From Nitrospirota bacterium (GTDB taxonomy: Bacteria; Nitrospirota; Thermodesulfovibrionia; Thermodesulfovibrionales; JdFR-85), in NCBI GenBank assembly GCA_015492515.1, contig WGEZ01000017.1, positions 1-37,861 on the forward strand: a stretch of 37,861 nt of DNA, given 5' to 3'. Position 1 is the first letter of the stretch, and every line of letters starts with the position of its first letter. The notes beneath the pieces are model-generated. The model was not told where the DNA came from and ran no database searches. It saw only the letters and a list, made by a program, of their open reading frames with translations. Position numbers and translations under genes: made by a program. Shown here one piece after another: positions 10,197 through 23,206 of the stretch.

Positions 10197-11858
10197 TCAG
10201 AGGACGAGGCGGGGTTTCTCATGCCTCACCTTGATCCTCTTCTTCTCCCTGATGTGGTCGAGGACGACCCTGTAGACCTCCGGGCCGCTCTGTTCTGCCA
10301 TGGAGGCCCAGCCGGCCACCGTGTAGTCCTTCTCCGGTTCCACCGGCCTTCCGCGGACCTTCAGGTCCTCTATCCTCCTGCCTGCACCTCCGTTCACCCG
10401 GATGGTGTAGCTCAGCCCCGCCGACCTCACCATGTCCCCGCCCTGCTGTCTGTAAGGGTCGGGGTTGAAGAGGTTATCCGCTATGTCTTCGAGGATGGTC
10501 TTGATCATGCTCCCCTTCAAGGTGGCCTTGTAGGTGTTCGGGTAGGTGATGGCGGTCTGGGAATAGACGTCATCAGCGGTGACAGGGCCGGGCAGCACGG
10601 TCCTGCCCCACCTGAACCCGGGGGAGAAGGCGAAGTCCGTGTCGTAATGCTCAAGCAGCGCCTCGCATATCAGCTCATCGAAGGTGCCGTCCAGGTTTCC
10701 CCGCCTGTAGAGGAGGTCCTCCGTGATCCCCACCACCTCGTCAAGCTCCTTCCTCCGGGGCCCCCGTATCTGCTCGATCAGCCTCGACATATCAGGGTCA
10801 GGCTCTATCATCGCCGAGACGACCGGTATCAGTCTGTAGGAGTACCCCCTCACCCTCCTGTCCTTGACGTCGAGGTCGAGCCTGGAGAGGAACTTCCCGT
10901 AGCAACCTGAGGCTATCACCAGGGTCCTGCCCACCTCCATCGGTCTCGGCACCGCGTCATGGGTGTGGCCGCCCATGATCACGTCTATCCCCTTGACCCT
11001 CCGCGCCATCTTCTTGTCCACGTCCGTCCCGTTATGGGAGATCACCACCACGAGGTCCACCTTCTTGGCCCTCACCTCGTCCACCACCGCCTGCAAGTTC
11101 TCTTCCTTTATCCCGAAGGACCAATCGGGGATGAACCTCCGGGGGTTTGCAATGGGCGTATAGGGGAAGGCCTGACCGATGATGGCGACCGAGAGGCCTG
11201 CTAGGGACTTTATCACATAGGGCCTGAAGATCGGATCTCCCCAGGTGGCGTCATGGACGTTCTGGGCGACGAAGGGGAAGTTCATCTTCTTCAGCAGCTC
11301 CAGGAAACGCGACTCGCCGTAGGTGAACTCCCAGTGGCCGGTCATGGCGTCACAGCCGAGGTGGTTAAGCACCCTCACCATGTCCTCACCACCCGTCCAG
11401 AGGCTTGTTGCTGAGCCCTGCAGCGTGTCACCCGTGTCCAGATACAGCACCTTCCCGTTCCTCTCGGCCCTGATCATCTTGATGAGCGTCGCCAGGTGCG
11501 AGAACCCTCCCATCTTCCCGTACTCCTTTGCGAGGGCGAGGAAGTCCTCACTCGTGTATGCGTATGCCTCGAGGGAGCGGGGCCTGAATCCATAGTACCG
11601 CAGGAAGTCTCGGCCTGTGAGATGGGGGGGCTGTGCCTCGTTCTCACCGACGCCTATGTTGGTGTCGGGTTCCCTGTAGTAGATGGGGACGAGCTGGGCA
11701 TGGGTGTCCGTGGTATGCAGGAGGGTTATGTTGCCCCTGGCGTCGAACCTGAAGAGGCTTTCAGGTCCCAGGGCCTTTGCAAGGGCCGATGGTGACGCGG
11801 CGGCGGCCCCTGCGGCAAGGGTGATCAGCTGAATGAACTCGCGCCTGGTGATACTCAT
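10197..11858 (-). CDS. soxB: Thiosulfohydrolase SoxB
   Basis: A periplasmic dimanganese hydrolase that releases sulfate from the SoxY-bound thiosulfonate intermediate. The 553-residue length is typical. It has a Tat-type leader (TRREFIQLI plus an alanine-rich stretch). Metal-ligand motifs are present: LLHTTDTHAQ, LYLDTGDTLQGS, GHWEFTYG (about 172-179, the SoxB form of the 5'-nucleotidase GNHE motif), VVISHNGTD and IMGGHTHD. A strong ribosome site (GGGAGGAG) precedes ATG 11858. It follows soxZ by 25 bases in the order soxY-soxZ-soxB. SoxXA and SoxCD are not in the window. Confidence 0.95.
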   Translation of the reverse strand: MSITRREFIQLITLAAGAAAASPSALAKALGPESLFRFDARGNITLLHTTDTHAQLVPIYYREPDTNIGVGENEAQPPHLTGRDFLRYYGFRPRSLEAYAYTSEDFLALAKEYGKMGGFSHLATLIKMIRAERNGKVLYLDTGDTLQGSATSLWTGGEDMVRVLNHLGCDAMTGHWEFTYGESRFLELLKKMNFPFVAQNVHDATWGDPIFRPYVIKSLAGLSVAIIGQAFPYTPIANPRRFIPDWSFGIKEENLQAVVDEVRAKKVDLVVVISHNGTDVDKKMARRVKGIDVIMGGHTHDAVPRPMEVGRTLVIASGCYGKFLSRLDLDVKDRRVRGYSYRLIPVVSAMIEPDPDMSRLIEQIRGPRRKELDEVVGITEDLLYRRGNLDGTFDELICEALLEHYDTDFAFSPGFRWGRTVLPGPVTADDVYSQTAITYPNTYKATLKGSMIKTILEDIADNLFNPDPYRQQGGDMVRSAGLSYTIRVNGGAGRRIEDLKVRGRPVEPEKDYTVAGWASMAEQSGPEVYRVVLDHIREKKRIKVRHEKPRLVL

Positions 11859-19634: not shown

Positions 19635-19657
19635 GATCTCTTCCCTCCGCTTACTGA

Positions 19658-19687
19658 ATACTATCACACGGAAAGGGGCTGTATCAA
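19658..19687 (-). promoter_or_regulatory. Predicted sigma-70 promoter of the J-domain membrane gene
   Basis: On the minus strand TTGATA (19682-19687) and TAGTAT (19658-19663) are 18 bases apart, 24 bases before the chosen ATG. The match is moderate. Confidence 0.4.
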
Positions 19688-19753
19688 TACTGGATTCAGC
19701 CCGATACCGGGCCCACGGTGGACGGCGCTTGGGCGGTACGGTCCGTGATGTGA

Positions 19754-19759
19754 TATAAT
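19754..19759 (+). promoter_or_regulatory. -10 box ahead of the UGA-containing small ORF
   Basis: A perfect TATAAT ends ten bases before the ATG at 19770, so the mRNA would have almost no leader. A TTGGGC 19 bp upstream is a weak -35. The same promoter would also read the PsiE-like gene at 19908. Confidence 0.45.
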
Positions 19760-19769
19760 CTCAGACGTG

Positions 19770-19895
19770 ATGGATCTATGCCCTGTCTGCCGGGAGCCTG
19801 TGGAGGAATGTCTCTGCTGTCCAGAGTGAGGACATGTATGCCCCCTGGATCTGGGGGAGCCCTACTGTCCTGTATGCAGACCCGGACCGGAGTGA
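19770..19895 (+). CDS. Candidate 41-residue Cys-rich selenoprotein with in-frame UGA
   Basis: The frame from ATG 19770 reads C4-P-V-C7, C14-L-C-C17-P-E, then UGA (19827-19829), and continues open as G-H-V-C24 and C33-P-V-C36 to a second UGA at 19893-19895. The UGA falls exactly where a third CxxC knuckle needs its second cysteine (C17-P-E-x20, followed by GH as in zinc ribbons). Read as selenocysteine it gives a CxxU motif. A five-pair GC hairpin starts 11 bases downstream. If the UGA stops translation, the product is only 19 residues. Alternatives are a nonsense mutation of TGC/TGT in a small zinc-ribbon gene, or chance. No Sec machinery is in the window. Confidence 0.5.
19841..19857 (+). 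promoter_or_regulatory. Candidate bacterial SECIS hairpin
   Basis: CCCCC (19841-19845) pairs with GGGGG (19853-19857) around a seven-base loop TGGATCT. Sixteen bases separate the UGA from the loop, and a G lies within the first two loop bases. Both fit the usual description of bacterial SECIS elements, at the short end of the distance range. Confidence 0.4.
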
Positions 19896-19907
19896 TCTGC
19901 CAGACCC

Positions 19908-20345
19908 ATGGAGGAACGTAAGCCAGACCTGACGGAGAGGTTCAGGAGACTGCTCGTGAAGGCGGATATCGTACTCCACGTGCTCGCCGCTGTACTGCTG
20001 CTCATCGCCTGCGCCTTCATATTCTACTATGCACTGATGAACGTGATCCATCCGTCCCGGGACGCCATAATACACCTGGTGAACGACGTGCTCCTGGCGT
20101 TGATAATCCTTGAGCTCCTCTGGACGGTGGTGAGGTTCCTGAAGAAGCAGAAGTTCCTCCTGGGACCCTTCCTCGCCATAGGGATGATAGCCGCTGTAAG
20201 GAGGCTGCTCCTGATAGAGGCACAGACCTCCACCCTGGAGCACGTGCCTGTTGAAAAGCTCTACGAGATCGGCGTGGTCGCCCTGGTGATCCTCGTCCTG
20301 ATGATCGCCTACTACCTCTCCGTCAAGGCGCAGAAGCTCGAATAG
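19908..20345 (+). CDS. PsiE-like small membrane protein
   Basis: A 145-residue protein with four predicted membrane helices. Hydrophobic runs are about 20-45 (IVLHVLAAVLLLIACAFIFYY), 60-78 (VLLALIILELLWTVVRFL), 87-100 and 120-140, ending in YYLSVKAQKLE. The spacing and the LIILELLWTVVRF segment resemble the phosphate-starvation-inducible PsiE family, whose function is not known. It starts 12 bases after the UGA-containing ORF and probably shares its transcript. Nothing here shows Pho control. Confidence 0.72.
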   Translation: MEERKPDLTERFRRLLVKADIVLHVLAAVLLLIACAFIFYYALMNVIHPSRDAIIHLVNDVLLALIILELLWTVVRFLKKQKFLLGPFLAIGMIAAVRRLLLIEAQTSTLEHVPVEKLYEIGVVALVILVLMIAYYLSVKAQKLE

Positions 20346-20665: not shown

Positions 20666-22168
20666 TCAGGCCTTCAGGATCATCTGGTTCGTACTGGAAC
20701 GGGTCTCACCGATGGATGTGACACGAATGGCGGGCCGGTCGCGTACGGGGCACTTGTTCTCACAGATGCCGCAGCCTATGCAGAGTGAGGTGTCCAGGTA
20801 GGGGAACCTGAGGGGCCGTGTCCTGCCGTTTCTGAGCCTCACCTGATGGGTCCGGAGCCAGATCGCCTTCGGCGACGTGGGGCAGACCTCCTCACAGACG
20901 ATACACTCTATGTTCATGGCCCAGGGGAGGCACCGTCCCCGGTCGTAGAAGGCGGTGCCTATCTTGACGGGCTTCTCAAAGGGGGGTGCACCGATCTTCT
21001 CTTCCACGCTGAGGGGGAGGATCGCTCCCGTCGGGCAGACCTGGCCGCAGAGGACGCAGTTGTACTCGCAGTAACCGATCCTGTTGATCAGTATGGGGGT
21101 CCAGAGCCCCTCGAACCCGGCCTCGAGCAGGGCGGGCTGGATCGCGTTCGTGGGGCATACCCTCATGCACTCCCCGCACTTTATGCAGCGCCGAAGGAAC
21201 CCCTCCTCAGGGATGGAGCCGGGCGGCCGGATGACCTGATCCCGCGGGACGGTCCGTGCGGCGGCAGCGCTCCGCATCATCGGAAAGAGGACGGCGCCGG
21301 CGACAGCCGTCTCTATCAACCTCCTGCGGCTCACGTCGACGGGGACGTGAACCGAACTCCCGGCCCTCGGCAGCCCGTAATGGATCGCCTCCTCAGGGCA
21401 GTGCTCGATGCAGTTCATGCAGAGGTGACACTCGCTGAACCTCAGGGCAGCGTGGGGGTCGCATCCGCCGTGGCAGTACCGGAGGCACTTCTGGCAGTCC
21501 GTGCATTTCTCGACGTCCCGCCAGATCCTGAGCACGGCCCTTCCCGAAAGCAGCCCCAGCAGCGCCCCGAGGGGGCAGAGCAGGCGACACCAGAACCTCG
21601 TCAGGAACCTGTTGGCAAAGAGGATCGCCAGGAAGACGAGGGCTATCAACACCCCACCGTGAAACAGGGGCTGCCTGAGGTAGAGCCCCCCTCCGAGGAG
21701 GTTCACCGCCGGGTAGACGGAGAGGACGAAGGAACGGCTGATCAGGGCTATGGGGTCGAAGAGGCCGGTCTGGAGCGAGCCGAGGAGGGCGAGCACCAGA
21801 AGCGCGGTGAGTATGTAGTACTTCAGCCTGTAGACGGAGCGGTAGGCGTTCACCCTGTAATCATCCGCAGGCCTCCGCCTGTTGAAGAGGTGGCTCACCC
21901 ACTGGTTGAGCGTCCCCAGGGGGCAGATCCAGGAGCAGAAGAACCGCCCCAGGAGGATGGTGCCCACGATTATCAGGACCGCGAGGATCAGGCCCTTGTA
22001 CAGGGTCCAGCTGGTGAGAAAAGAGGTGACGGCCACAAGGGGGTCGAGCTCGAGGAAGAGGGCCACCTCGTAGCCCTTGATGTTCCTGAAGTCCGTGATC
22101 CCCACGAGGACGAGGAAGAGGACGAAGAAGAAGACCGAATAAACCCTCCTTATGTCACGGAGCGTCAT
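20666..22168 (-). CDS. NapH/NapG-like membrane polyferredoxin
   Basis: A 500-residue iron-sulfur protein that combines an N-terminal NapH-like membrane part with a C-terminal NapG-like ferredoxin part. The first about 200 residues hold several helices and CSWICPLGTLNQW and CRLLCPLGALLGL motifs. Cluster motifs follow: CTDCQKCLRYC, CHLCMNCIEHCP, CIKCGECMRVCP, CVLCGQVCPTG, CIVCEEVCP and CIGCGICENKCP. A SRRRLIETAVAGA stretch between the halves looks like a former Tat leader, consistent with a fusion. It should pass electrons between quinol and periplasmic redox partners. AGAGGG precedes ATG 22168. It is the last gene of the 25318-20666 operon. Confidence 0.88.
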   Translation of the reverse strand: MTLRDIRRVYSVFFFVLFLVLVGITDFRNIKGYEVALFLELDPLVAVTSFLTSWTLYKGLILAVLIIVGTILLGRFFCSWICPLGTLNQWVSHLFNRRRPADDYRVNAYRSVYRLKYYILTALLVLALLGSLQTGLFDPIALISRSFVLSVYPAVNLLGGGLYLRQPLFHGGVLIALVFLAILFANRFLTRFWCRLLCPLGALLGLLSGRAVLRIWRDVEKCTDCQKCLRYCHGGCDPHAALRFSECHLCMNCIEHCPEEAIHYGLPRAGSSVHVPVDVSRRRLIETAVAGAVLFPMMRSAAAARTVPRDQVIRPPGSIPEEGFLRRCIKCGECMRVCPTNAIQPALLEAGFEGLWTPILINRIGYCEYNCVLCGQVCPTGAILPLSVEEKIGAPPFEKPVKIGTAFYDRGRCLPWAMNIECIVCEEVCPTSPKAIWLRTHQVRLRNGRTRPLRFPYLDTSLCIGCGICENKCPVRDRPAIRVTSIGETRSSTNQMILKA

Positions 22169-22212: not shown

Positions 22213-23172
22213 TCAGACGGTGATTTCCACATGGTTCAGCCTCCTCCAGTCCGATACCCCGAGACCACGCTCCTCGGCGGCCCTGATGAAGGGGACCTCC
22301 TCCACCTTCAGCTCAAGGAACCTGAGGCTGTAGGAGTCCAGGGCAACCTCGTCCAGTCCGGCTACTATGGTATCCTCGCGGGAGACGTCGGAGGGGCTGC
22401 CGCCCGTGGGGCCGTTGCGTTTCAGCACCCGGGTAGCATCGACGATCGTCAGCGTCGGACGGATGGCGGCGGCCAGGTCGGCGATGGAGACGTCGATCTC
22501 CTGGTGGAGGCGGTTCCGCCTGCCGCCGAGCACGCCGTACCAGTTCTTCATGGCTATGGTGCACCTGCTGAGGGAGTGGTGCTTCACGACGGGGACGTTG
22601 ATCACCCTGTCCACCTCGTGGTAGAACCTGCTCACAGGCCAGACCCTGAGGACCTCCCCTCCCAGGTCGGTGAGGAGGAAGTCGCCCTCGGTGGTGAACT
22701 TCACCTCACCGCCGGCCTTCCTCACGGCGGACTCTATGCCCGATCTCGCAAAACACCGGTAGGGGTCGTTTATGGTGACGTCGGTGACCCAGACCTCCGC
22801 TGCCCCTGCCTCGAGGCACAGCCGCACAACGGCCTGAACCAGTGCAGGGTTGGTGTTCGCCGCCAGCTCGGGCTGCCGGTCCCATCCTGCGTTCGGCTTT
22901 ATCAGGACCCTCTCTCCAGGTGAGACGAAGCGGGAGATGCCCCCGAGGCGCTCCACTGCGGCGCGGGCCATCTTCTCCACGTCCCTTCCGTGGACCACGA
23001 CGAGCCCCGGATAGGCCGCGGCATCGGCCACGCGGTAGTCCTTGAAGGTGAAGACCCGTTCGGCCCTCCTCCTGAGGGGCTCCCTGCTGTAAGAGAGGAA
23101 CCCCCAGAGGCCGGCCCCTGCCGCAAGGGCGCAGGTCGTGGCGGTCCTGATCAGGAAACCCCGCCTGTCCAT
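22213..23172 (-). CDS. DUF362 family Tat-exported protein
   Basis: A 319-residue protein with a Tat-type leader (MDRRGFLIRTATTCALAAGAG) followed by a DUF362 domain: ERVLIKPNAGWD, TNPALVQAVVRLCLEAGA, VINVPVVKHHSLSRCTIAMKN and LTIVDATRVLKRNGPTGG. DUF362 has no settled biochemical role. This copy lacks the ferredoxin extension that some have. ATG 23172 has AGGAGAG nine bases upstream; a start 11 codons earlier would bury the Tat motif. It lies 34 bases after the DUF6599-like gene and 44 before the polyferredoxin. Confidence 0.85.
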   Translation of the reverse strand: MDRRGFLIRTATTCALAAGAGLWGFLSYSREPLRRRAERVFTFKDYRVADAAAYPGLVVVHGRDVEKMARAAVERLGGISRFVSPGERVLIKPNAGWDRQPELAANTNPALVQAVVRLCLEAGAAEVWVTDVTINDPYRCFARSGIESAVRKAGGEVKFTTEGDFLLTDLGGEVLRVWPVSRFYHEVDRVINVPVVKHHSLSRCTIAMKNWYGVLGGRRNRLHQEIDVSIADLAAAIRPTLTIVDATRVLKRNGPTGGSPSDVSREDTIVAGLDEVALDSYSLRFLELKVEEVPFIRAAEERGLGVSDWRRLNHVEITV

Positions 23173-23206
23173 GACCGGTTCTCTCCTGTCGTGCCTGGAG
23201 GGCACC

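Follow-up and report, generated by a model that had tools for sequence, protein, structure and literature searches.

An Apparently Undescribed Family of Cysteine-Rich Mini-Proteins in Nitrospirota, Very Probably Selenoproteins

In the window analysed here, that is, the whole stretch of 37,861 nucleotides of a Nitrospirota genome, we found that a mini-gene of 41 codons plus a TGA stop (19770–19895, plus strand, with its ATG at 19770), defined by its translation and its family of homologues, very probably encodes a real selenoprotein of 41 Cys-rich residues. The support is strong and comes from comparison of genomes, no protein or selenium having been measured; what this comparison shows is coding through an in-frame UGA, exchange of selenocysteine (Sec) and Cys at one and the same codon, a conserved hairpin, and the presence of the decoding machinery. 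The family is apparently undescribed in the sources that we checked, and a prior mention cannot be excluded. Taken as a whole, selenoprotein decoding that yields a metal or redox product is the explanation that we prefer with considerable confidence.

In the scheme that we propose, a dedicated sigma-70-type promoter, with its −10 box a few bases before the start, would give a leaderless mRNA, as inferred below, on which a hairpin that begins 11 nt past the UGA would recruit SelB:Sec-tRNA(Sec), the binding of SelB to the GGAUCU loop being itself an inference. Selenocysteine would then be inserted at codon 20, as the conserved signals and the complete machinery lead us to infer, giving a product with nine near-invariant ligand-type residues (C4, C7, C14, C16, U/C20, H22, C24, C33, and C36). 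This product would presumably bind one or two ions of Zn or Fe, Sec standing at a place that can also be taken by Cys, and would work as a cytosolic metal-thiolate/selenolate protein, serving either as a small electron or thiol carrier or as a metal site sensitive to redox state or electrophiles.

The Read-Through Frame and Its Homologues

Read from 19770 to 19895, the mini-gene translates as MDLCPVCREPVEECLCCPE*GHVCPLDLGEPYCPVCRPGPE*, the predicted product being MDLCPVCREPVEECLCCPE-U-GHVCPLDLGEPYCPVCRPGPE, with Cys at positions 4, 7, 14, 16, 17, 24, 33, and 36. The translation bears out the initial annotation in that the frame stays open through an in-phase UGA with Cys pairs on either side. 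This UGA is codon 20 (19827–19829, plus strand), where homologues carry only TGA, TGC, or TGT, and the terminating UGA lies at 19893–19895 (plus strand), near which the homologues stop with TAA, TAG, or TGA. A gene this short, with a UGA interrupting it, should escape gene callers.

When the read-through protein was used as the query against 60 related genomes, about 20 of them proved to contain this frame, interrupted only by the same in-frame TGA (E 1e-18 to 1e-9), and five more contained it without a stop. An alignment-based search of genome contigs added 64 further loci, nearly all from Nitrospirota metagenome-assembled genomes (MAGs), together with about 10 titled Deltaproteobacteria or Proteobacteria, and in a phylum-wide sample a member in the Sec or Cys form was present in 92 of 396 genomes. 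The family thus consists of proteins of 40–76 residues from Nitrospirota, mainly Thermodesulfovibrionia and relatives, with Cys-only forms also in MAGs labelled Deltaproteobacteria. It had no match in phage and plasmid collections, and therefore there is no sign of a mobile-element gene.

For a closer comparison, 71 distinct homologues (duplicates removed) were collected by a motif in which the codon-20 position was left open to any residue, and that codon turned out to be TGA in 46, TGC in 21, TGT in 4, and nothing else. Residues C4, C7, C14, H22, C24, C33, P34, and C36 are invariant, H22, C24, C33, P34, and C36 among them lying downstream of the UGA, and C16 is near-invariant; this invariance is partly built into the collecting motif, and looser alignment searches agree with it. 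The recurrence of the same in-frame TGA across the order, together with the restriction of codon 20 to TGA, TGC, and TGT, is far beyond chance. An in-frame UGA aligned with Cys in homologues and followed by conserved sequence is what is required of a selenoprotein gene, and it is also one of the points on which the initial annotation had staked its claim: the lack of any relative with Cys or UGA at this codon, together with a lack of conservation after it, would have refuted it, and this was not the case. A chance frame or pseudogene, in which the UGA is a true stop and the conservation coincidental, is practically untenable, being already refuted by the homologue set, whose 71 sequences are strongly conserved before as well as after the UGA, even if pseudogenes of this family do exist. 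One homologous locus (L027, genome G045) looks like a recent pseudogene: its codon 20 is GGA, ligand Cys residues are lost, and a TAA follows residue 24, with the upstream gatataat box still there.

On a weakly resolved protein tree, the Sec or Cys label requires at least 12 changes, one of them within a genus, where L046/L122 (TGT) stand against L036 and L108 (TGA).

Selenocysteine Machinery in the Host and Its Relatives

The initial annotation would also have failed had the genome lacked selenocysteine machinery, another element required of a selenoprotein host; the genome has selA (606 bits), selB (315 bits, the gene being cut by a contig end), selD (345 bits), and a tRNA-Sec (72 bits) with anticodon UCA. 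PF05889 (SepSecS), of the archaeal/eukaryotic route, is absent from the host, as expected for a bacterium. Both selD and a formate dehydrogenase (FDH)-like gene of the host carry an in-frame UGA, and in the FDH-like gene a hairpin comes after it whose GGUCU loop is similar to the GGAUCU of the mini-gene. With its own in-frame TGA, the host selD (L129, G000:C131:33185-34096) would probably make the selenophosphate synthetase a selenoprotein as well.

Among relatives, SelB was over the cut-off in 20 of 21 genomes with a Sec form and in 15 of 16 further ones (some being the same assemblies under another handle), and was missing from 5 of 23 Cys-form genomes. Full-length SelB was not found in two Sec-form draft genomes (G046 and G434), probably because of assembly gaps. 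This correlation is only partly informative because Sec decoding is almost universal in the order (58 of 61 over the cut-off).

The SECIS-Like Hairpin

A G in a small apical loop is a feature of bacterial SECIS elements (PMC1088965), and the mini-gene meets this criterion with a hairpin just downstream of its UGA, CCCCC-UGGAUCU-GGGGG (19841–19857, plus strand), recognised by its pairing, its retention in Sec forms, and a freeze of third positions. It begins 11 nt after the UGA, with the seven-base loop 16 nt from it, as the initial annotation had described; for the exact register of the stem, the alignment prefers a pairing one base off. The RNAalifold register pairs 19842–19846 with 19853–19857 and adds G19847–U19852, which in alignment columns means 16–21 with 26–31 (19842–19847 with 19852–19857). 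In this consensus register, 93.7% of the cells are paired, and covariation is slight, with one truly compensatory pair, whose changes occur in four sequences. Rfam gave no match at 19650–20000.

Our case for the hairpin rests on conservation and on the contrast between Sec and Cys forms, not on covariation. The segment from +9 to +33 folds with a mean energy of −9.1 kcal/mol in Sec forms vs. −6.1 kcal/mol in Cys forms (Mann–Whitney p 9e-5, uncorrected for relatedness). Compared with its synonymous recodings, the segment reaches a mean z of −2.5 in Sec forms and −0.6 in Cys forms, with 41 of 46 and 4 of 25 sequences, respectively, in the lowest 5%. Third-position identity at codons 25, 26, 28, and 29 is 0.76, 0.96, 0.80, and 0.72 in Sec forms vs. 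0.28, 0.32, 0.27, and 0.33 in Cys forms, i.e., the freeze of synonymous sites coincides exactly with the hairpin codons and is seen in Sec forms only, and in Cys forms the hairpin and the freeze are mostly both gone.

Two Cys forms, L042 and L046, still have an intact hairpin. The TGT form L046/L122 retains it fully and is very similar to its Sec-form kin of the same genus, and its genome (G403) has no SelB over the cut-off, as expected after a recent Sec-to-Cys change; its hairpin is likely a fossil SECIS.

These data also bear on whether the UGA could be read as some other amino acid (Cys via a tRNA with a UCA anticodon, or Trp) or merely be leaky. Readthrough alone would also yield the full-length product, and yet we consider this highly improbable, given that Cys is the sole substitute among homologues, that the hairpin is as a rule kept only with UGA, that the host has a complete Sec pathway, and that TGA still terminates the same open reading frame. 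After this terminating UGA, no strong hairpin is found (−6.8 vs. −19.8 kcal/mol over 45 nt).

Promoter and Leaderless mRNA

Just upstream of the mini-gene, an extended −10 element, TGA-TATAAT (19751–19759, plus strand), can be read directly, the perfect TATAAT that the initial annotation had pointed out being present at 19754–19759. In the window, the box ends 10 nt before the ATG, or 7 nt before an in-frame GTG (19767–19769, plus strand) that may serve as the start codon in place of the ATG at 19770, judging from the commonest box-to-start gaps in the family, 5–7 nt. A perfect TATAAT ends 4–12 nt before the start, mostly 5–7 nt, in 38 of 45 Sec-form homologues, and a comparable box precedes only 9 of 297 other open reading frames of the same loci, these being mechanical calls of which some are not genes. 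In the majority of members of the family, the distance from box to start is 5–10 nt. A −35-like hexamer accompanies 21 of 54 box-bearing members vs. a background of 3.5%. A promoter scan that required a −35 hexamer did not list the TATAAT of the window, and the support for the promoter is the extended −10 element and the family comparison. Of the 46 Sec forms, 39 lack a Shine–Dalgarno-like tetramer; several Cys forms from Deltaproteobacteria carry an ordinary AGGAGG-type site instead.

Transcription is known to start about 6–7 nt from a −10 box. Since the box-to-start gap is close to this distance and Shine–Dalgarno sequences are mostly absent, we infer that the mRNA of the mini-gene is probably leaderless. 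The NfeD-type protease gene downstream of some family members likewise shows a TATAAT a few bases ahead of its start codon in L052 (235–1534), L059 (170–1481), and L064 (coordinates relative to the mini-gene start), and leaderless genes may thus be commoner in this lineage.

Genomic Neighbourhood

The downstream neighbour (19908–20345, plus strand) is indeed a PsiE-family membrane protein, as the initial annotation had proposed (PF06146, 47.4 bits, E 2.6e-12), and psiE is probably co-transcribed with the mini-gene; the association is incidental, however, given that psiE flanks the mini-gene in only five loci, the window included. Immediate neighbours vary, being YajQ-type in 24 loci, an NfeD-type protease plus slipin in about 11, and a RarA-type ATPase in about 9, and in 9 Cys-form loci a YhaM-type exonuclease is encoded on the other strand; all of these names except PsiE were given by eye from sequence, without a library search. 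In L039, L061, and L083, both psiE and yajQ lie downstream. On this comparison, the conserved unit is the mini-gene with its promoter, of which psiE is not part. Read-through into PsiE via the second UGA was considered and rejected: tails and stops differ among homologues, there is no strong hairpin, and psiE is in frame only in the window among the five loci.

The same layout has to be weighed against a selenium-responsive leader peptide, in which decoding of the codon-20 UGA would control the downstream gene and the peptide itself would do little. The short frame does have its own promoter and does stand directly before psiE, yajQ, the NfeD-type protease gene, or rarA, often within about 60 nt. 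We nevertheless find this very unlikely, because the downstream genes vary by lineage, because Cys forms, unable to sense selenium in this manner, keep all the ligand residues, and because the conserved gene downstream is encoded on the opposite strand in nine Cys-form loci.

Elsewhere in the window, a thiosulfohydrolase SoxB is encoded at 10197–11858 (minus strand; TIGR04486, 815 bits), so the host probably oxidises thiosulfate, and a NapH/NapG-like fused ferredoxin membrane protein stands beside a DUF362 protein (20666–22168 and 22213–23205, both on the minus strand), a putative electron-transfer module.

Possible Metal or Redox Role

A metal and redox role is inference only, towards which we lean without much assurance. 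The layout is CxxC-x6-CxC, (C)xxU-x-H-x-C ... CPxC, and the second half looks like the knuckle of a zinc ribbon or of rubredoxin, with weak similarity to the RNA polymerase B zinc ribbon (E 0.0028) and rubredoxin (E 0.02) and weak RUBY_RBDX and Zn_ribbon_3 matches among members. No known metal-binding family was matched over its curated cut-off, and the AlphaFold model is mediocre (pLDDT 71.5, pTM 0.33), without a fold match in the PDB, and is not used as an argument. The CxxC/CxC pattern and the weak similarity to zinc ribbons, rubredoxin, and rubrerythrin speak for one or two sites occupied by Zn or Fe.

The knuckle-pair pattern C17xxU20...C33xxC36 is present in 64 of 71 members, with library matches only weak (E 0.003–0.02). 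The CxxU knuckle of the initial annotation accordingly stands for the window and most members, and fails in the 7 of 71, 4 of them Sec forms, that lack its first Cys, C17, whereas H22 and C24 are never lost. This observation weighs against a different reading of the same selenoprotein, with Sec as a redox-active selenol in a C17-x-x-U20 selenosulfide, working by thioredoxin-like chemistry without the fold, and not as a metal ligand. Most members do have C17, and CxxU or UxxC redox motifs occur in the majority of known selenoproteins (PMC13188914); against this, C17 is dispensable and the CxxC/CxC pairs and weak library matches suggest metal sites, and we regard the selenol reading as rather doubtful. 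A site made of U20, H22, C24, C33, and C36, be it a metal site or a reactive selenolate, is a better guess than the C17–U20 pair, given that C17 can be lost and H22 and C24 cannot. Our tentative idea, possible but far from secured, is that these are widespread leaderless mini-selenoproteins in which a Zn or Fe ribbon has Sec as a native ligand, structural or redox (an M-S3Se-type site). If true, the part played by selenium would be that of tuning a small electron carrier or metal-thiolate switch, and the protein would not be a classical thiol oxidoreductase.

Significance and Comparison with Known Systems

With this family, the bacterial selenoproteome gains an apparently undescribed and fairly widespread member, and selenium use at a metal-ribbon site in Nitrospirota is suggested. 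The close Sec/Cys sister pairs offer a natural experiment on the contribution of selenium and on the decay of SECIS hairpins once Cys has returned, and a protein this small lends itself to synthesis, spectroscopy, and structural work.

The family shares with the selenoproteins made by SelA, SelB, and tRNA-Sec, such as formate dehydrogenase and SelD, the in-frame UGA, the hairpin just downstream, the Cys homologues, and the machinery. It differs from known bacterial selenoproteins in being tiny, Cys-rich, and probably leaderless, and in lying outside the 119 prokaryotic families tabulated in PMC13188914 (2026), none of which fits, an earlier mention elsewhere not being excluded; the deep-Sep paper (PMC12013277) reports nine new selenoprotein families, none similar by name. 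Pfam and NCBIfam 20 gave no convincing model match, the best E over 67 members being about 0.003, and none at E ≤ 0.1 for the window protein.

It is not a new category, because Sec in a small CxxC protein has a precedent by name in the Sec form of the FmdB-type putative regulatory protein (TIGR02605, UxxU; PMC13188914), likewise small, with CxxC pairs and Sec replacing a knuckle Cys. FmdB differs in its pattern and has two Sec vs. one in the mini-protein, and TIGR02605 had no match at E ≤ 0.1 in the 67 members. The same holds for the models NF041197 (dual CXXC motif small protein, OS_HP3 / hypothetical protein DW) and NF041239 (CC/Se motif), which are also short, Cys-rich predicted selenoproteins of unknown function, and whose Sec context is listed as RxU/GxU and CxxU.

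Finally, the rubredoxin-like domain of rubrerythrin (PF21349) and zinc ribbons (PF13248, RNA polymerase subunit B) appear to share the CxxC-GH...CPxC knuckle with the second half of the mini-protein, at E values of only about 0.003–0.02 and with no Pfam match at E ≤ 0.1 for the window protein. In contrast to rubredoxin and zinc ribbons, the mini-protein has an extra invariant CxxC, a CxC, H22, and C24, and it carries Sec at a ligand position.
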